Positions 1 to 12,393 of a stretch of DNA of 12,555 nt are shown one piece after another (positions within the stretch are counted from its first letter, which is position 1; the number at the start of each line of letters is the position of its first letter). Under the pieces are notes generated by a model. It worked only from the letters and a program-made list of their open reading frames with translations, had not been told where the DNA came from and searched no databases. Origin of the DNA: Candidatus Mcinerneyibacteriota bacterium (GTDB lineage Bacteria > AUK180 > JAQVHJ01); the NCBI GenBank assembly GCA_030630935.1, contig DAOVMD010000037.1, positions 1-12,555 on the forward strand. The letters run 5' to 3'. A program made the position numbers and the translations under genes.

Positions 1-49
1 ATAAAAGTCAACAATTTACCGGGCTCCTTTTATCTTGCCAATAACCGTC

Positions 50-84
50 AACCATAAATTTTAAGTGTGCAGCGAAGCGAAACT
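50..84. repeat. Dispersed intergenic repeat, copy 1
   Basis: This 35-base stretch matches 4474-4508 at 29 of 35 positions without gaps, sharing the core AGCGAAGC. Most of the differences are transitions. Here the hairpin arms seen in the second copy (GTGTAGC/GCTACAC) have decayed. Both copies lie outside genes, so it is probably a dispersed non-coding element or a repeated terminator-like hairpin. Copy number elsewhere in the genome is unknown. Confidence 0.6.
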
Positions 85-115
85 ATTAGATTGCCGCACT
101 CCACTATGTTCCGTT

Positions 116-205
116 CGCAATGACATTCTGACGTTCTGCAAAATCCGCAATGACAATCAAGCGTTCTGCTAAATTCGCAATGATATTCAGACATCAGAAA
201 AAAAC
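116..205. repeat. 30-base-period tandem repeat (about 2.5 units)
   Basis: Three consecutive units begin with CGCAATGA at 116, 146 and 176, an exact 30-base period. Units 1 and 2 agree well, sharing CGCAATGACA and GCGTTCTGC or ACGTTCTGC. The third diverges after about 15 bases and runs into the promoter of the next gene. Just upstream, ATTGC (90-94) and GCAAT (117-121) form the ends of an imperfect inverted repeat. There are no spacers between units, so it is not a CRISPR array. It resembles the GCAATGAC-type intergenic repeats found in many environmental genomes. Confidence 0.7.
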
Positions 206-207
206 AC

Positions 208-237
208 TTGATTTTGTATTTGAATTTCTGGTATAAT
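208..237 (+). promoter_or_regulatory. Probable sigma70 promoter of the DUF4178 operon
   Basis: TTGATT at 208-213 is followed after 18 bases by a perfect TATAAT at 232-237. The -10 box is preceded by TGG, giving an extended -10 motif (TGnTATAAT). The expected start of transcription is near 244, leaving a leader of about 17 bases with AAGGAGG at 250-256 before the ATG at 261. The promoter borders the last degenerate unit of the 30-base tandem array. Confidence 0.65.
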
Positions 238-260
238 AAAGAAAAATATAAGGAGGATAA

Positions 261-1073
261 ATGGGTCTTGAATATAAAGAAGTGAAGTGCCCCAATTGCG
301 GTGCTCCTATTAAACTTAAAAGTGCCTTAAGAAGTAAGGTTGTAATTTGTGAATATTGTAACGCAGAGATATCCCTTGAAGGAGATATTGGTATCAAGGT
401 TGGAGAGAGAACACGACATGAATATCCGACTCGTTTAGCAGTTAAATTAGGTCAAATAGCTTCTTTTGAAGGGAAGAGATTTGAGTTAGTAGGTAGAATT
501 GTTTATGAATTTGATGATGATGAGGATATTGATTATTGGGAAGAATTTCTTTTCCTTGCAGACGATGGGGAATATATCTGGTTAGAATGTGATTGTGACG
601 GGTTCACCAAGTATCGAGAGTTAAGGCCGAAAAAGCCAATTAATCCAAGAACCTTAAGACCTGGACAATCGATAGAATTAGACGATAAAAAAGGCACAGT
701 AAAAGAGATAGGTCCCGCTAAGATTGCTTTCTTTGAAGGTGAGCTCACATGGAAGGTCAAGTTAGATTCCAGTGTAATGTATGTTGATATTGAATTCACA
801 AATGGTGAGACAGGTTCGATTGAATATACCGATAAGGAGTTGGAGTTTTTTATTGGGAGATCAATTTCACGAAAAACCGTATATGAAGCCTTAGGAATTA
901 AATATATCCCACCGAAAAAGGATACAAAATCAGGTATTATGTTTGTGGTTATTGTTATAATAATTATCGTTTTATGTTGTCTTTTTTCAAAGTTCGGCGG
1001 TGGAACCAGTTCAAGCTCAGGTATTAGAACGAGTTCACCAAGTAATTCTTTTTCAAGTAGTGGTGGAAAATAA
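261..1073 (+). CDS. Zinc-ribbon DUF4178 membrane protein
   Basis: A 270-residue protein with an N-terminal zinc ribbon (Cys10, Cys13, Cys30, Cys33), then a central region of about residues 60-200 resembling DUF4178, a predicted beta-rich domain. Its features include a DDDEDIDYWEEFLF segment and the WLECDCDGF segment. One strongly hydrophobic helix follows at about 225-243, and then a Ser/Gly-rich tail. The likely topology is a cytosolic zinc ribbon and DUF4178 domain anchored by a single C-terminal membrane segment. The biochemical function of DUF4178 is not established. In other genomes it co-occurs with DUF350 and spermidine-synthase-like genes, as here. AAGGAGG at 250-256 supports the start. 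It is the first gene of the probable operon, 19 bases before the DUF350 gene. Confidence 0.85.
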   Translation: MGLEYKEVKCPNCGAPIKLKSALRSKVVICEYCNAEISLEGDIGIKVGERTRHEYPTRLAVKLGQIASFEGKRFELVGRIVYEFDDDEDIDYWEEFLFLADDGEYIWLECDCDGFTKYRELRPKKPINPRTLRPGQSIELDDKKGTVKEIGPAKIAFFEGELTWKVKLDSSVMYVDIEFTNGETGSIEYTDKELEFFIGRSISRKTVYEALGIKYIPPKKDTKSGIMFVVIVIIIIVLCCLFSKFGGGTSSSSGIRTSSPSNSFSSSGGK

Positions 1074-1092
1074 TATAAATTAGGAGGATGAA

Positions 1093-1332
1093 ATGTTTGG
1101 AGATATTTTTGATGTACCCTGGCACCTTGTAATAAGGAATATTCTATCAACAGGTTTTTATTCAATGTTGGGAATCATTTTAGCAATCATTGGTTATAAG
1201 ATTTATGATTGGATTACCCCGTTTTCTCTAACTAAAGAATTAGCAGAAGATCAGAATGTTGCAGTTGGGATTGTTGTGGGTTCAATGATGCTTGGAATCT
1301 GTCTTATTATTGCTTTTTCAATTGCATTTTAA
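1093..1332 (+). CDS. DUF350 family small membrane protein
   Basis: A 79-residue protein with two hydrophobic segments (about residues 12-38 and 54-77). They are separated by a short loop with the sequence KELAEDQNVAVGIVVG, which matches the DUF350 (YjfL-like) pattern of a charged loop, an Asn, then a Gly-rich second helix. DUF350 proteins are inner-membrane proteins of unknown activity, often encoded beside polyamine-related aminopropyltransferases and glutathionylspermidine-synthase-like ligases. AGGAGG at 1082-1087 sets the start. The gene is sandwiched between the DUF4178 and aminopropyltransferase genes, which supports membership of the same membrane system. The length is complete for a single DUF350 unit; many homologues carry two. 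Confidence 0.85.
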   Translation: MFGDIFDVPWHLVIRNILSTGFYSMLGIILAIIGYKIYDWITPFSLTKELAEDQNVAVGIVVGSMMLGICLIIAFSIAF

Positions 1333-1398
1333 TAAGATTTAACCTTTGGATTTAATAGTTTCAGAGAGAGATACGGGGTAGTAAACAGTTAATGTTTT

Positions 1399-2910
1399 AT
1401 GGAAAAGACTGAAGTAAAAATCATTTTAATTTCAACCCTGGTTATCGCAATAAGTTCAATTGTTTATGAACTTTTAATCGGGGCAATCGCCACATATTTC
1501 CTTGGTAATAGTGTTTATCAGTTTTCAATTACAATTGGAATCTTTATGTTTTCCGCCGGCTTAGGTTCATTCCTGTCAGCAAAAATCAAAAAGGATGAGA
1601 TATTTAATTTTATAACAATTGAGATAATAATTAGTCTTATTGGCGGTTGTTCTTCACTAATTTTAATGCTCTGTTTTGCGTATACTCGAGTCTATTCAGT
1701 TGCGATGTTTTCTATGTTGATTGTAATTGGAATATTAACCGGACTTGAGATACCGTTATTAATCAGGATTTTAAAAAGATATTTTGATCTTAAGTTTACA
1801 GTATCCCAGATTCTTGCATTTGATTATATCGGAGCATTAGTCGGGGCGGTGGTTTTTCCATTAATAATGCTTCCATATTTAGGTATTGGTTTAACTGCAA
1901 TCGTGATGGGATTATTAAATATTTTAATTGCAATTTTAAATTCCTTTTTCTTTAGTAACCTCCTGAGAAAAAGACAATTTATTAAGTGGGTATCAGTTTC
2001 GGTCTTTGTTTTCTTGTTTTTACTGGGAATAAATACATCGAGACTTACAATTAAAATTACAGGTAAGCTATATCAGAATAGTGTAATCTGGAGTAAACAA
2101 ACAAAATACCAGAGTGTTCTACTTTTAAAATTTAAAGATGACTATAGAATGATAATTGATGGCAATCTCCAGTTCTCATCAATTGATGAGTACAGGTATC
2201 ATGAAGTTCTGGTTCACCCCGTAATGTCACTTGTAAAGAAGAATCGCAACATTTTGGTTCTCGGCGGTGGTGATGGCCTTGCAATTAGAGAGATATTGAA
2301 GTATAAGGATATTGATAGTATCACACTTGTCGATATTGATAAAGAGATAGTTGAGATTTGTAAAGAGAATGTTGTAATGAAAAAGCTTAACCAGAATTCA
2401 CTCTCGCATCCAAAAGTTAAGATTGTAATTGATGATGCTCAGAAGTTTTTGGAAAAGACAGATGAAATTTATAATATTGTAATAATTGACTTACCTGACC
2501 CGAATAATTTCACTCTTTCGAAGTTATATTCTCAAGAGTTTTATCGGCTTCTTTCACATCACTTGAGTGCAGACGGAATAATTATAACTCAATCCACTTC
2601 ACCTTTCCTGTCCAATGACGCATTCTCGTGTATACATAATACATTAAAATCTGTATTTAAATATGTTGTTCCTATTAATACCTATGTTCCAACTTTTGGA
2701 TTATGGGGTTTTAATATGGCTTCAAATTACAAAATTCCGATTGATGATATAAATATTGAAGTTGAAACACGGTATCTCGATAACGAAGTTCTTAAAACAA
2801 TATTTATCTTTTCAGATGATTGTAAAGTTAAAGAAACAAAAATTAATCAGATTCATTCACCCGTTCTCCAAATGTACTATTGGAAGAATTGGAAGAAATG
2901 GCGAGGTTAA
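1399..2910 (+). CDS. Membrane-bound spermidine-synthase-like aminopropyltransferase
   Basis: A 503-residue fusion of about seven N-terminal membrane helices (residues 1-210) and a C-terminal spermidine synthase/methyltransferase fold (about 220-480). Visible motifs are DGNLQ (254-258), YHE (267-269), the nucleotide-binding LGGGDG (288-293), the acidic VDID at the end of beta 2 (311-314), DDAQKF (345-350) and DLPDP (364-368). The last corresponds to the catalytic Asp loop of aminopropyltransferases. The family (predicted membrane spermidine synthases, COG4262-like) would transfer an aminopropyl group from decarboxylated S-adenosylmethionine to an amine acceptor, but the acceptor is unknown. 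No adenosylmethionine decarboxylase gene is in the window. The start codon has only a weak ribosome site; a nearby ATG at 1392 is out of frame. The gene lies 66 bases after DUF350 and one base before the next gene's start. Confidence 0.88.
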   Translation: MEKTEVKIILISTLVIAISSIVYELLIGAIATYFLGNSVYQFSITIGIFMFSAGLGSFLSAKIKKDEIFNFITIEIIISLIGGCSSLILMLCFAYTRVYSVAMFSMLIVIGILTGLEIPLLIRILKRYFDLKFTVSQILAFDYIGALVGAVVFPLIMLPYLGIGLTAIVMGLLNILIAILNSFFFSNLLRKRQFIKWVSVSVFVFLFLLGINTSRLTIKITGKLYQNSVIWSKQTKYQSVLLLKFKDDYRMIIDGNLQFSSIDEYRYHEVLVHPVMSLVKKNRNILVLGGGDGLAIREILKYKDIDSITLVDIDKEIVEICKENVVMKKLNQNSLSHPKVKIVIDDAQKFLEKTDEIYNIVIIDLPDPNNFTLSKLYSQEFYRLLSHHLSADGIIITQSTSPFLSNDAFSCIHNTLKSVFKYVVPINTYVPTFGLWGFNMASNYKIPIDDINIEVETRYLDNEVLKTIFIFSDDCKVKETKINQIHSPVLQMYYWKNWKKWRG

Positions 2911-2911
2911 A

Positions 2912-4201
2912 TTGAAGAGAAAAAATTTATATTTAATACTTATTATGTTACTTCTGCCAACTATTATATTCTGTGATATTCTTGTTCCGATGGATTCTGT
3001 TCAGACAGATCACTTGAAAGCTTATGGACTTGTTTACTGGACACTAAAAAATTATGATAAACCATGTGAATGGTTATTAAATTACCGGGACGGTTCCTTT
3101 CTTATCCCGGACACCAATGAAATCCGCGGAAAAGCCGGGTTACTCGGAGTAAAGATTGAAGTGGTTTCACCTGAGAAAACTTTAAGAATATTTGAAACGA
3201 TTAACGAGAATAACATGGAACGTGTAATCCTTGAAAAAGCACCGAAGGTTGCAGTTTATACTCCAATGGGTAATTATTTGCAGGGTTCTAAATATGACCC
3301 GCTTGAACCTTGGGATGATGCTGTAATTCTCGCACTTGAATATGCAGAAATTCCATATGATAAAATTTACGATAGAGGAGTCTTGGCCGGTAAACTTGAT
3401 AAATATGACTGGGTGCATCTTCACCATGAAGATTTTACCGGACAGTATGGAAAATTCTACAGGAATTATCGTAATGCATACTGGTATAAAAAAAGAGTTG
3501 CCTGGACAAAAAAAGAAGCGAACGAATTAGGTTTTGAGTCAGTTCAGAAATTTAAGGCAGGAGTAGCATTGAAAATAAGAGAATATGTAATGAATGGCGG
3601 ATTTATCTTTGCAATGTGTTCTGCTTGTGATACAATTGACATAGCTTTAAGCGCAATTGATATCGATATTATTCCATCGGAAATCGACAATACACCAATT
3701 GATCTCGATTATCAATCAAAATTAAATTATGATAGATGCTTCGCATTTAAAAATTTTAAGTTAATTCATGATGTTAATATTTATGAATTTTCTAATATCG
3801 ATGTGAGTAATTATTTTAATCCGAAACAATCACATAAAGAAGATTTTATCTTATTTGAATTCTCAGCAAAGCAGGATCCCGTACCTACAATGTTAACACA
3901 GTCTCATAAGAAAGTCGTAACTGGTTTTTTCGGGCAGACAACTTCTTTTAAAGATTCCTTGCTTAAAGATGATATCATTACCCTCGGCACAGTACTTGAA
4001 GGAGGGAGGGTTAAATACATCCACGGGAATAAAGGTAAGGGTACTTTTACTTTTTATGGCGGTCATGACCCGGAAGATTATTCACATTATGTCGGGGACC
4101 CCCCTACTAATCTCTCCCTGTTTAAGAACTCCCCGGGATATCGACTTATCCTCAATAATATTTTATTTCCTGCCGCTAAGAAGAAGAAAAAAAAGACTTA
4201 G
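2912..4201 (+). CDS. Exported glutamine-amidotransferase-like protein ('asparagine synthetase B' family by common annotation)
   Basis: A 429-residue protein. I chose the TTG at 2912 because GAGGT at 2903-2907 precedes it, it begins with a basic MKRKN, and a hydrophobic core follows (residues 6-20), giving a complete Sec signal peptide. The first in-frame ATG (2945) would remove the basic end. The open frame upstream of 2912 overlaps the previous gene and is not needed. The protein resembles a Bacteroidetes family often labelled asparagine synthetase B, but no Asn synthetase domains are visible. Instead it shows a class-I amidotransferase/ThuA-like plan. Features include the HLHHEDFTGQYGKFY segment (169-183), a nucleophile-elbow-like FAMCSACD with Cys236, YGGHDPEDY with His385 (382-390), and a conserved Lys-rich end (AAKKKKKKT). 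The lipobox is poor (IIFC), so it is probably soluble or periplasmic. The function is unknown, and its coupling to the aminopropyltransferase suggests a shared pathway. Confidence 0.82.
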   Translation: MKRKNLYLILIMLLLPTIIFCDILVPMDSVQTDHLKAYGLVYWTLKNYDKPCEWLLNYRDGSFLIPDTNEIRGKAGLLGVKIEVVSPEKTLRIFETINENNMERVILEKAPKVAVYTPMGNYLQGSKYDPLEPWDDAVILALEYAEIPYDKIYDRGVLAGKLDKYDWVHLHHEDFTGQYGKFYRNYRNAYWYKKRVAWTKKEANELGFESVQKFKAGVALKIREYVMNGGFIFAMCSACDTIDIALSAIDIDIIPSEIDNTPIDLDYQSKLNYDRCFAFKNFKLIHDVNIYEFSNIDVSNYFNPKQSHKEDFILFEFSAKQDPVPTMLTQSHKKVVTGFFGQTTSFKDSLLKDDIITLGTVLEGGRVKYIHGNKGKGTFTFYGGHDPEDYSHYVGDPPTNLSLFKNSPGYRLILNNILFPAAKKKKKKT

Positions 4202-4324
4202 ATTGAGGGGACGGAGGGTACATTTTGTTGCAGTATTATGTTTACTTCAGAATGTTTCCGGTCCTTTACTTTTTTTATTGTTTTCATACTCGTTTCATAA
4301 GGGAGGATTAAGTTCTTATGGTCA

Positions 4325-4344
4325 GGGCGTCTCGCCACACGCCC
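4325..4344. repeat. GC-rich inverted repeat (GGGCGT/ACGCCC)
   Basis: Six-base perfect arms, GGGCGT (4325-4330) and ACGCCC (4339-4344), enclose an 8-base loop in an otherwise AT-rich spacer. No T-tract follows, so it is not a typical intrinsic terminator. Such isolated GC-rich dyads are often copies of dispersed REP-like elements. Confidence 0.5.
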
Positions 4345-4473
4345 CTACACCGTTTATGATACAATGCTTTGGTTTTCGGATGAATAAATTAAAAAATTTA
4401 TATTAAGAAATATCGCTCTAAACTACTGCATTGTCATATATAAAGCAAAATCAATATTCAATTAATAATTACT

Positions 4474-4508
4474 AATCATAAATCTTAAATGTGTAGCGAA
4501 GCTACACT
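4474..4508. repeat. Dispersed intergenic repeat, copy 2
   Basis: It aligns without gaps to 50-84 at 29 of 35 positions. In this copy the right half forms an intact hairpin (4491-4507), which is degraded in the other copy. It sits directly behind the stop of the kinase gene. Confidence 0.6.
4491..4507. terminator. Hairpin terminator, probably bidirectional
   Basis: A perfect 7-base stem, GTGTAGC with GCTACAC, is closed by a 3-base loop (GAA on the + strand, TTC on the - strand). On the + strand it is followed by TTTTGC, a short T-tract. On the - strand it begins 5 bases after the kinase stop codon and is followed by ATTTAAG, a weak tract. It separates two convergent transcription units. The + strand reading is about 290 bases from the upstream stop, so it serves the - strand operon more plausibly. 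Confidence 0.5.
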
Positions 4509-4512
4509 TTTG

Positions 4513-5472
4513 CTACAATATTATATCGAGTATTTCATTATTAAGTTTTAATTGTGAGAAATTAAGTTTAAAATGTTTCAGTGTGAGTGGGATATATTGT
4601 TCATATTTTGTTTTACCTTTTTCAAATGCCAGGTAGCAGAAAGTTGCGATTGCTTTTAGATTTCTTTGCAATGCTGTATATAGGATCAAGTTGAAGTCTG
4701 TTTCGTATTCCTTACCGGAAAAATCGATATACCTTCTTATAATATAATCCTTTAGTTCATCGTCAATATCAACATATGAATCCCAAATTAAAGATGCAAT
4801 ATCGTAATGTTCAGGACCAATACGTAAATCCTGGAAATCTACATTAAAGACCTTACCATTAAAATGAAGGAGATTTCTGGAATGAAAATCCCTGTGAATT
4901 GTAAAGCCAACACTTGCATAAACTGTTTTGTTAAGTTCCTTAAAAAAATCTTTCAGGATTTTTTTCTGATCACTTGTTAAAGAAATGTTTTTATATTTTT
5001 TGATGTAATATTTGAAAAAGAAATTTTCTTCCCATTTGAATTTATCTTTTGAAAATGTTTCACCCTTAATTTTTGTTATCATTCTGATCGGGATATTTTT
5101 AATTTTGATAATTTCGTTCATTGCATTAAGGTAAATTTTTTTCAAATCATATTCTGACAACTGTTTTTCTTCAATAATCTTTAAAAGTGTATTGTCGCCG
5201 ATATCCTGCATAATCACCAGCCCGGCATTCGGTATAACTTTGAATATTTTCGGGATTTTTATTTCATATAACTTCATCAATCCATAAGCTCTAAGAACTT
5301 GAAATTCACTTGATGTATGAGTGAGTTCTTTTTCATAATCCATAATTATAAATGATTTATTATCAGAGCTGAGTCCACGATAAAATATTCTATCGGAAGC
5401 ATCTCCGGTTAATCTTGTAATATCTTTTAAACCGGTTAGTTTAGTTAATTCCTGAATTTTTTCTTTGGTCAT
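4513..5472 (-). CDS. AmgK-like (COG3178) aminoglycoside-phosphotransferase-fold sugar kinase
   Basis: A 319-residue kinase of the APH/choline kinase fold. The N-lobe carries LTGDASDRIFYR (21-32) and IIMDY (42-46). These match the GDAS..R..YR and MD pattern typical of AmgK-type anomeric N-acetylmuramate/N-acetylglucosamine kinases. The catalytic loop is HRDFHSRN (193-200, Asp195 and Asn200) and the metal loop is VDFQD (211-215, Asp212). The following RIGPEHYDIASLIWDSY matches the AmgK-family stretch after the FQD motif. The usual partner MurU (uridylyltransferase) is not in the window, so peptidoglycan sugar recycling is a family-based guess, and other phosphate acceptors are possible. The ribosome site is weak. 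It is the last gene of the operon, 36 bases after the ABC ATPase stop, and a hairpin follows. Confidence 0.75.
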   Translation of the reverse strand: MTKEKIQELTKLTGLKDITRLTGDASDRIFYRGLSSDNKSFIIMDYEKELTHTSSEFQVLRAYGLMKLYEIKIPKIFKVIPNAGLVIMQDIGDNTLLKIIEEKQLSEYDLKKIYLNAMNEIIKIKNIPIRMITKIKGETFSKDKFKWEENFFFKYYIKKYKNISLTSDQKKILKDFFKELNKTVYASVGFTIHRDFHSRNLLHFNGKVFNVDFQDLRIGPEHYDIASLIWDSYVDIDDELKDYIIRRYIDFSGKEYETDFNLILYTALQRNLKAIATFCYLAFEKGKTKYEQYIPLTLKHFKLNFSQLKLNNEILDIIL

Positions 5473-9662: not shown

Positions 9663-11198
9663 TCAATTCAAGACTCCGATTAAGTTTTCAACTTCATTCA
9701 GGATTTCACAAGACTTTACAAGTGCCTTCATTGTATTATGGTCTTTGTATAAAGGTCGATCAATTTCCAGGAAATCAACATGGTTCCTGATAATATCTTT
9801 TGCTTTTTTAACTCCCATCCCGAATTTAAATGGATTCTCCATCTTATCCCTCAAGTCCAATGCTTGTGCCGCGGCCATAAGCTCAATCCCGAGGATACCA
9901 TAAGCGTTGTCTAATATATGGAAGTTCTTAATTGCAGTATTCATACCCATTGACACAAAATCCTCCTGATCAGCAGCAGCGGGAATTGATTGAATTGATG
10001 CCGGAGCTGATAGGATTTTTTGTTCAACAATCTGTGTGTCGGCAGTATATTGGCTTAACATTAACCCTGAAAACATACCGGCTCCTTTTGTAAGGAATGG
10101 TGGTAATCCCACGCTTAAAGCCGGATTGTTCAATCTATTCATTCGTCTCTCTGATAAGACACTCACCATTGTAACTGCAATCCCAACCATATCCATTGGT
10201 AAAGCAACCGGACTGCCCTGAAAATTTGCACCAGATATCTGTAAATTCTCTTTCGGAAAGAATATCGGATTATCTCCAACTCCATTTAATTCAATTTCCA
10301 CTTGTGATCTTGCCCAGGCCACAGCATCATGAGCTGTTCCGATAACCTGAGGAGTTGAACGCATAGAATAAGCATCCTGAACCTTAACTTTTAATTTTCC
10401 GGATGCCAGGTCTCCACCTTCGATTAACTTTTGAATTGCTTTTGCAGATTTGATAGCTCCTGCAAACCCCCGGGCTTCATGCAGTTTAGGAGAATAAGGC
10501 TTCATGTTGGCCCTTAAAGCTTCCAGTGACATTGCTGCTGCAATCTCTGCTTGTTTGAGCCACCTTTCAGTGTCAAAAAGCATTATTGCGCTCATCGCAG
10601 TCAGGACATTTGCGCCATTAATCGTAGCTAAACCATCCCTGGCTTTTAAACCTGGAACCTTAATCCTGGCTCTTTTAAAAACTTCCTTCCCGGATAATAA
10701 TTCATCTCTATAATATGCCTTACCCTCACCCAATAATAAGAGTGCAATCTGCGACATAGGTGCTAAATCACCGCATGCTCCAACAGAACCCTTTCTGCAT
10801 ACATAAGGAGTTACTCCCTTATTAAGCATCTCAATTAATGTAAGTGTAATCTCAGGTCTGCAGCCGGAGTTACCATGAGCATGAACATTGACCCTGCCTA
10901 ACATCGCTCCCCGAACATATTCAAGCGGCATTGCTTCCCCGATTCCGGCAGCATGATTATAAATTAAATATTTCTGGAACTGCTTAACTTGGTCTTCATC
11001 AAGTACAACTTCTGAAAATTCTCCAATCCCTGTATTTACGCCGTACATGATCTCTTTAGCTTCAAGCTTCCTGTCAACCATCTTACGGCAAAACTTTATC
11101 CGTTCAAGTGCATCAGGATGAAGCTCAACTTGCTCATGGTTTCTTGCAACTTTTACAACGTCTTCAATTGTTAAATTTGACCCTGTTACTATTAACAT
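9663..11198 (-). CDS. MIO-type aromatic amino acid (histidine-like) ammonia-lyase with Ala-Cys-Gly cofactor triad
   Basis: A 511-residue member of the HAL/PAL/TAL family that removes ammonia from an amino acid to give a trans-2-enoate (urocanate if the substrate is histidine). Active-site equivalents of Pseudomonas HutH are present: Tyr52, His82, Asn194, Gln274, Tyr277, Arg280, Phe326 and Glu392. The motif SIPAAADQEDFVSMG is HAL-like. The MIO-forming triad is Ala141-Cys142-Gly143 rather than Ala-Ser-Gly (codon TGC, read directly from the sequence). The selectivity pair is Asn81-His82 where HutH has Ser-His. HAL is the best guess, but no hutU, hutI or other histidine-degradation genes are nearby, so the substrate is uncertain. 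AAAGGAG precedes the ATG, supporting this start. It stands alone between two promoters. Confidence 0.88.
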   Translation of the reverse strand: MLIVTGSNLTIEDVVKVARNHEQVELHPDALERIKFCRKMVDRKLEAKEIMYGVNTGIGEFSEVVLDEDQVKQFQKYLIYNHAAGIGEAMPLEYVRGAMLGRVNVHAHGNSGCRPEITLTLIEMLNKGVTPYVCRKGSVGACGDLAPMSQIALLLLGEGKAYYRDELLSGKEVFKRARIKVPGLKARDGLATINGANVLTAMSAIMLFDTERWLKQAEIAAAMSLEALRANMKPYSPKLHEARGFAGAIKSAKAIQKLIEGGDLASGKLKVKVQDAYSMRSTPQVIGTAHDAVAWARSQVEIELNGVGDNPIFFPKENLQISGANFQGSPVALPMDMVGIAVTMVSVLSERRMNRLNNPALSVGLPPFLTKGAGMFSGLMLSQYTADTQIVEQKILSAPASIQSIPAAADQEDFVSMGMNTAIKNFHILDNAYGILGIELMAAAQALDLRDKMENPFKFGMGVKKAKDIIRNHVDFLEIDRPLYKDHNTMKALVKSCEILNEVENLIGVLN

Positions 11199-11295: not shown

Positions 11296-12393
11296 CTATC
11301 TTAAAACATTTATTTTAAGTTCAAAGATATCCGGATATACCCCAGTTACATCTTTATTAATAAATTGAATATAATATTTCCCGGCAGCTAACTCAACTTC
11401 GAACGGAATTGATTTATTATTAACAATTAAATTTCCGAAGTTATCATAAATATTTGCTTTAACATCAATCCTTGGTTTATCAGACCCAAACTTCTTTAGA
11501 ATTTCAATTAAACTATTTCCCTTTAATGTAAATTTAAAATAATCCATATCCCCGGCAGGGAAGAGATTAATTTTATTGAATTTTCCCAATATAATCTCTT
11601 TTGATTCAGAAAAAGAGTTATTCGGTTCAAATTTATCTAAAACAACAGGTTCAAATTCAACTTTTACAGAGAACAGGTCTTCGTTTTCTGAATTCTCATT
11701 TTCATCAAAAAGGATAAATGCAAAATCTCCTTCTGCAATAGGTATCTCAACCGGAAATGATAATGGTCCTTTTAATAATTCCCCGTCAAGATTATAGAAA
11801 TTCAACATAAGTTTTATATCAATCGGCTTATTTTCATCATACGAAAATTTCAGATAGCCTGCATTAGGAGATTGGATCTTAAATGCTTCCTTATCTCCCT
11901 TTGGGAAGATATTTATTTTTAATGAGTCATTAATTTTTATTACTCGTGCTTCTTCCAGTTTATTATTCGGTTCAAATTTATCAAGAGCAACCTTAAAAAA
12001 ATTAAGAATAATGCTAAATGCTATCTGTGATTCTTCGTCATTTAAATTATCTTTAATAGATAAGAAATATTCTCCCTTTGCAAGAGTTTTTTTAAATGGT
12101 ATTTTAACATTATTAGCGATTATTTTTGTATCATTATCATATAATGTTGCGATTAGCTTAATATTGGTAGGCTTCTTAATGTCATATTCAATATGAATCA
12201 TTCCCGGATCCTTAATTGAAAATTTAAAGAAATCGATATCTCTTTTTGGGAAAATGGACATCTTTATCTTTTTATTTAATTTAATCTTCTTCGCCTGGTT
12301 AAAACTGTCGTTAGGTTCATTCCGGTCTTTATCTTTACATGACCCCATGAATAGGATGAAAAACAATAGTGAAATAACAAAAAACTTTTTCAT
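11296..12393 (-). CDS. Lipoprotein with three tandem PPC-like repeats
   Basis: A 365-residue lipoprotein. It has a hydrophobic signal (MKKFFVISLLFFILF) and a lipobox MGSC, giving Cys19 as the acylated N-terminus. The rest consists of three homologous repeats of about 105-110 residues at roughly 26-135, 141-246 and 256-364. Each opens with EPND or EPNN, then continues with IFPKRDIDFFKF, IFPKGDKEAFKI and LFPAGDMDYFKF, and later has an IPF or IPI segment before a Gly-[EDK]-[YF] turn. This matches the pre-peptidase C-terminal (PPC) beta-sandwich pattern, but no protease or other catalytic domain is attached. It probably acts as a surface or periplasmic binding or adhesive lipoprotein; this is inference. 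AGGAG at 12401-12405 lies 7 bases before the ATG. Confidence 0.8.
   Translation of the reverse strand: MKKFFVISLLFFILFMGSCKDKDRNEPNDSFNQAKKIKLNKKIKMSIFPKRDIDFFKFSIKDPGMIHIEYDIKKPTNIKLIATLYDNDTKIIANNVKIPFKKTLAKGEYFLSIKDNLNDEESQIAFSIILNFFKVALDKFEPNNKLEEARVIKINDSLKINIFPKGDKEAFKIQSPNAGYLKFSYDENKPIDIKLMLNFYNLDGELLKGPLSFPVEIPIAEGDFAFILFDENENSENEDLFSVKVEFEPVVLDKFEPNNSFSESKEIILGKFNKINLFPAGDMDYFKFTLKGNSLIEILKKFGSDKPRIDVKANIYDNFGNLIVNNKSIPFEVELAAGKYYIQFINKDVTGVYPDIFELKINVLR

Follow-up and report, generated by a model that had tools for sequence, protein, structure and literature searches.

A compact DUF4178–DUF350–membrane aminopropyltransferase gene set in a Mcinerneyibacteriota bacterium, followed by a probably independent gene for an exported protein

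Does the last gene of an operon belong to the pathway that the genes ahead of it encode? A four-gene operon from a Candidatus Mcinerneyibacteriota bacterium raises this question. It lies in the 12,555-nucleotide stretch of DNA analyzed here (hereafter, the window; contig DAOVMD010000037.1 of assembly GCA_030630935.1). A preliminary description had read it as four plus-strand genes behind one promoter, encoding a zinc-ribbon DUF4178 protein, a DUF350 membrane protein, a seven-helix spermidine synthase fusion, and an exported amidotransferase-like protein, the last proposed to replace or counterbalance an ATP-grasp ligase. An open reading frame check confirmed the four genes at the coordinates first given, with gaps of 19, 66, and 1 bases between them (Table 1). 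The operon is a real, conserved gene unit, because the same gene order recurs in G006, which represents a different genus within the window's family, and all four proteins are conserved between the two genera, with 63–84% identity and dN of 0.09–0.32; synonymous sites have dS above 1 or are saturated, and dS is hence not computable for the latter. The single promoter also held up. The count of sigma-70-like sites by itself is no higher than expected by chance; the promoter is supported because its hexamers and position are kept in the second genus, and not by its match alone. The junction between genes 3 and 4 is a 1-base gap in the window and a 4-base overlap in G006, a tight arrangement retained across at least 22% protein divergence.

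Table 1. Features of the operon, with positions counted from the first base of the window
Feature	Positions	Strand	Basis
Sigma-70-like promoter, TTGATT-18-TATAAT, with TG before the -10 (extended -10)	208–237	+	Hexamers kept in G006
Gene 1: N-terminal zinc ribbon (CxxC...CxxC), DUF4178, and one C-terminal TM helix; 270 aa	261–1073	+	Pfam, hydropathy
Gene 2: short DUF350 protein with 2 TM helices; 79 aa	1093–1332	+	Pfam, hydropathy
Gene 3: fusion of 7 TM helices and aminopropyltransferase, PRK03612-type SpeE; 503 aa	1399–2910	+	NCBIfam, motifs, tree
Gene 4: exported two-part protein, TTG start, probable passenger; 429 aa	2912–4201	+	AlphaFold2, VIA-align, conservation, neighborhoods

What do the first three genes encode? 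Gene 1 matches the Pfam family DUF4178 (1.5e-13), along with a weak LysW-like zinc ribbon, and hydropathy places its transmembrane (TM) helix at residues 224–242. The match of gene 2 to Pfam DUF350 (1.1e-15) spans profile positions 4–66 of 133, which is half a domain. Gene 3 combines matches to Pfam Spermine_synth (1.6e-45) and, over the cut-off, to the NCBIfam polyamine aminopropyltransferase model PRK03612 (4.5e-171), and the seven helices found by hydropathy lie ahead of its SpeE domain. Its YQ, DxxxYHE, GGGDG, and DxPDP motifs—catalytic and binding motifs among them—are invariant in eight aligned SpeE homologues. Pfam, NCBIfam, and hydropathy thus agree with the identities initially assigned to these genes. 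DUF350 and DUF4178 genes adjoin within one operon and are joined by a seven-helix synthase, as is characteristic of the DUF4178-DUF350-7TM SpeE set, a partnership that the preliminary description had noted and that the literature also documents (PMC11237479).

We then asked which known systems stand closest to this trio. In a midpoint-rooted synthase tree of 12 rows, gene 3 clusters with plasmid-borne SpeE homologues of Novosphingobium, Gemmatirosa, Burkholderia, and Ensifer (support 100/98); in the first three of these, the synthase has DUF4178 genes beside it, together with a short match to DUF350. The cluster on plasmid p1 of Novosphingobium sp. ES2-1 (NZ_CP063446.1) reads SPFH, DUF4178, DUF4178, small hypothetical protein, DUF350, aminopropyltransferase, FAD-dependent oxidoreductase, and speD. 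It shares with the window a zinc-ribbon DUF4178 protein (the first of its two, with an N-terminal ribbon of the kind seen in gene 1), a DUF350 protein of the same short size class (69 versus 79 aa), a PRK03612-type SpeE, the order of these genes, and a SpeD encoded in the genome. The window differs in having a single DUF4178 gene rather than a pair, no SPFH or FAD-dependent oxidoreductase gene, an unlinked speD, and gene 4 downstream. The trio is a pared-down version of the Novosphingobium cluster.

A second layout—PspA, CesT/Tir, DUF4178, YjfL (DUF350), 7-TM spermidine synthase, and the lipoprotein Ctha_1186—has been described as an operon (PMC11237479) and is present in three of the loci that we examined (L127–L129). 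Might the trio work with an envelope stress system of this PspA/CesT type, as in the operons of other phyla? The DUF4178, DUF350, and 7-TM SpeE components are common to both, but the DUF350 protein there is long (281 aa in L126–L129), neither PspA nor CesT is encoded in the window, and gene 3 falls outside the PspA-linked SpeE clade, on a separate branch of the tree. Moreover, a search for PspA (PspA_IM30) found it in none of the seven phylum genomes; 9 of 14 controls were matched in that search, and the window's own genome (G000) is 80% complete. We consider a link to such a system very improbable. The surface polyamine genes PA4773–PA4775 of Pseudomonas aeruginosa (PMC3572637), of which PA4774 is reported to be a thermospermine synthase (PMC11107197), provide an analogy only: SpeD- and SpeE-type enzymes are tied there to cell-surface polycations, but PA4774 has 349 aa according to the literature, so it is not the 503-aa 7-TM form, and the genes are under PmrAB control.

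Can the rest of the genome supply what the trio lacks? The preliminary description had remarked on the absence of two usual partners, an AdoMet decarboxylase and an ATP-grasp ligase. Both are indeed absent from the window, but the decarboxylase, SpeD, is encoded elsewhere in the same genome, on contig C7, where it scores 123 bits against a TIGR03330 cut-off of 76 and contains the usual processing site, ESHFSIHTWPE. SpeD occurs in exactly two of the seven phylum genomes, G000 and G006, and these are the same two that have a close 7-TM synthase, as expected if both enzymes work together. For the ligase, the absence extends beyond the window: the glutathionylspermidine-type ATP-grasp enzyme (GSP_synth) was found in 0/7 phylum genomes, with controls matched and, again, 80% completeness of the window's genome. 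The published account of the seven-helix SpeE group (PMC11237479) likewise lists no ATP-grasp ligase, and there is therefore nothing for gene 4 to replace.

The pairing of SpeE with SpeD is also what an ordinary spermidine route would show, in which the 7-TM SpeE and the unlinked SpeD act on cytoplasmic putrescine or agmatine and yield no special envelope product. The canonical catalytic residues of gene 3 fit such a route, as does the finding that the window's genome has no second close SpeE, with distant partial matches only elsewhere. However, the fusion to seven helices and the constant company of DUF350 and DUF4178 point to a role at the membrane, and our search found neither a pyruvoyl-type arginine decarboxylase (PvlArgDC) nor a clear ornithine or arginine decarboxylase, but a single Orn/Arg/DAP-type enzyme of uncertain specificity. 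An ordinary route is thus possible, although we doubt it. The Orn/Arg/DAP-type decarboxylase (G000:C138) was considered as a source of putrescine and set aside; it is fused to a zinc ribbon, lies among methyltransferase genes, and scores below the NCBIfam cut-offs.

What kind of protein does gene 4 encode? Hydropathy indicates a signal-like N-terminal segment, and comparison of the sequence with Pfam, NCBIfam, and PDB chains gave no useful match. An AlphaFold2 model built from 49 aligned sequences (pLDDT 88.7, pTM 0.88) was more informative. In VIA-align comparisons, residues 109–425 of this predicted model resemble ThuA-like proteins, class I glutamine amidotransferases, and a matching GH42 domain (Z 10.5–13 over 173–229 residues), and Foldseek ranked 2gk3 first (E 8.9e-6). 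Cys236, invariant in all 49 sequences, sits in the model between strand 231–235 and helix 238–247, the position of a nucleophile elbow. Also invariant are Asp33, His34, and the segment HLHHEDFTGQ (169–178); His385, which follows strand 377–382, shows no variation across the 47 rows extending that far, and Glu388 is present in 44 of these 47; this His and Glu would be the candidates to complete a catalytic triad with Cys236. All of these key residues are conserved equally in homologues outside the operon.

The model suggests that gene 4 shares with the class I amidotransferase-like and ThuA-like fold (PDB 1t0b, 4jqs, and 3rht) the overall architecture of residues 109–425 and a Cys at the strand–helix elbow. 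It is unlike proteins of that type in lacking a sequence match to them, in being exported, and in having an extra N-terminal domain, at residues 21–108, and the unusual HLHHEDFTGQ motif. "Amidotransferase-like with a possible catalytic Cys," as the protein had first been characterized, is thus a fair description of the predicted fold. The fold group includes many proteins other than amidotransferases, and gene 4 probably encodes, on the evidence of the model, a Cys-dependent hydrolase or amidotransferase-fold protein. Its relatives may appear in public records under the name "asparagine synthetase B." A relationship to DUF4159, a frequent neighbor, was also considered; profile comparison gave a match of only 16 columns, and we claim no relation.

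How widely is gene 4 distributed, and in what company? The family is very widespread, with at least 549 loci found, of which 80 were fetched with their neighborhoods. Among these 80, no DUF350, DUF4178, or synthase gene lies near gene 4 except in the window's own family. The common neighbors on the same strand encode a TPR protein (48 loci), DUF4175 (29), and DUF4159 (25), with gene 4 often downstream of a DUF4159-DUF4175-TPR series; others are lepB/hemW-like genes. Within the phylum, gene 4 is present in 7/7 genomes, including all five from the sister family, which have neither a close 7-TM synthase nor an AdoMet decarboxylase and in which gene 4 follows a gene for an S66 LD-carboxypeptidase. 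Only in one family (two genera) does it stand beside DUF350 and SpeE. Seven of 50 genomes with gene 4 also have a 7-TM synthase, and the two adjoin in just one, from the window's own family; in the other six, the synthase is accompanied by DUF350 but not by gene 4. Conversely, the SpeE operons of other phyla that we examined are without gene 4. SpeE was found in 0/132 genomes of the phylum of G051, a source of gene 4 loci, in a set that had no positive control, and no gene 4 homologue was found on plasmids.

These distributions bear on the proposal that gene 4 serves the pathway as a dedicated component, forming, transferring, or cutting an amide of some aminopropylated compound of the envelope in place of the ATP-grasp ligase. 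Its predicted amidotransferase-like fold and elbow Cys, its tight coupling to gene 3 in two genera, and the failure to find a GSP_synth ligase in the genome would all suit such a part. However, all seven phylum genomes have gene 4, including those in which SpeE and SpeD are missing, and its residues are just as conserved where it lies outside the operon. It is absent from the SpeE operons of other phyla, with the published group carrying a lipoprotein instead. The proposal had also staked itself on gene 4 recurring beside DUF350, DUF4178, or SpeE genes in other genomes, and among the loci examined it does so in the window's family only. We therefore regard a dedicated role, including replacement or counterbalancing of a ligase, as improbable. 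Because gene 4 is a phylum-wide core gene whose adjacency to the trio is confined to one family, nothing convincing ties it to a polyamine pathway; it probably belongs to the old core genes of this bacterial group and lies beside the trio by chance in one family, where adjacency would not mean joint function.

Taken as a whole, the locus is likely best explained as a minimal DUF4178-DUF350-membrane-SpeE set served by an unlinked SpeD, with gene 4 as an independent passenger. SpeD from the gene on contig C7 would provide decarboxylated AdoMet, from which the SpeE domain, tethered at the inner membrane by its seven helices, would transfer an aminopropyl group to an amine, possibly putrescine or agmatine or else one linked to the membrane. 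Holding, gating, or regulating SpeE at the membrane is the probable role of the DUF350 protein and the zinc-ribbon DUF4178 protein, and the outcome would be an aminopropylated polycation produced at the envelope or destined for it. The product of gene 4 would be an independent exported core protein, probably cotranscribed with the trio and without a dedicated part in the pathway. Counting against this explanation, the tight junction of genes 3 and 4 is present in both genera, and our search, in a genome 80% complete, turned up no polyamine acceptor pathway. An alternative is that, in the window's family, an old exported Cys enzyme was recruited into the membrane polyamine operon and now takes the aminopropylated product as its periplasmic substrate, which we think unlikely.

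What, then, does this locus tell us about the systems involved? The trio is a compact form of a membrane polyamine gene set already known from bacteria. Of the layouts that we saw it is the smallest, with a single DUF4178, a single half-size DUF350, and a single SpeE together with a speD gene elsewhere in the genome, and it is useful for telling which parts of a membrane-tethered aminopropyltransferase set are essential. Our analysis also sets apart the gene 4 family as widespread and exported, with a predicted amidotransferase-like fold, outside the Pfam and NCBIfam models, and with no described function that we could find. This family poses a more interesting question than the trio itself.

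The zinc-ribbon-fused PLP decarboxylase was found only in the two genomes that bear the seven-helix SpeE synthase, the window's own (G000) and that of a second genus of the same family (G006), and methyltransferase genes adjoin it.

Features in the window and at two outside loci.
Feature	Location	Strand	Basis
Zinc-ribbon-fused Orn/Arg/DAP-type PLP decarboxylase	L141 (G000:C138), 3382-4800; also L142 (G006:C98)		
APH-family kinase, AmgK-like (N-acetylmuramate/GlcNAc kinase)	4513-5472	-	sequence models
Histidine-ammonia-lyase-like protein	9663-11198	-	NF006871 subfamily cut-off passed, narrowly
Predicted lipoprotein, three repeats of ~105 residues each	11296-12393	-	sequence

The operon's last gene (2912-4201, +) belongs, with loci L024-L103, to a very widespread, strongly conserved family of predicted exported proteins (identity about 50-60% across several phyla), for which Pfam and NCBIfam hold no model and an amidotransferase/ThuA-like fold is predicted; DUF4159-DUF4175-TPR genes often precede its members in those loci. 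Non-coding sequence upstream (window 1-207) is dense with short repeated words (GCAATGACAATC-like), as is that of the G006 counterpart (L009 1-800; ACCGCAGAGAGCG-like).

The kinase falls far short of the AmgK equivalog cut-off, and the lipoprotein repeats weakly resemble PPC domains. For hutH, the ammonia-lyase-like product does not reach the equivalog cut-off, and models of tyrosine aminomutase and flexirubin TAL give it good scores too; it could be another aromatic ammonia-lyase or an aminomutase.
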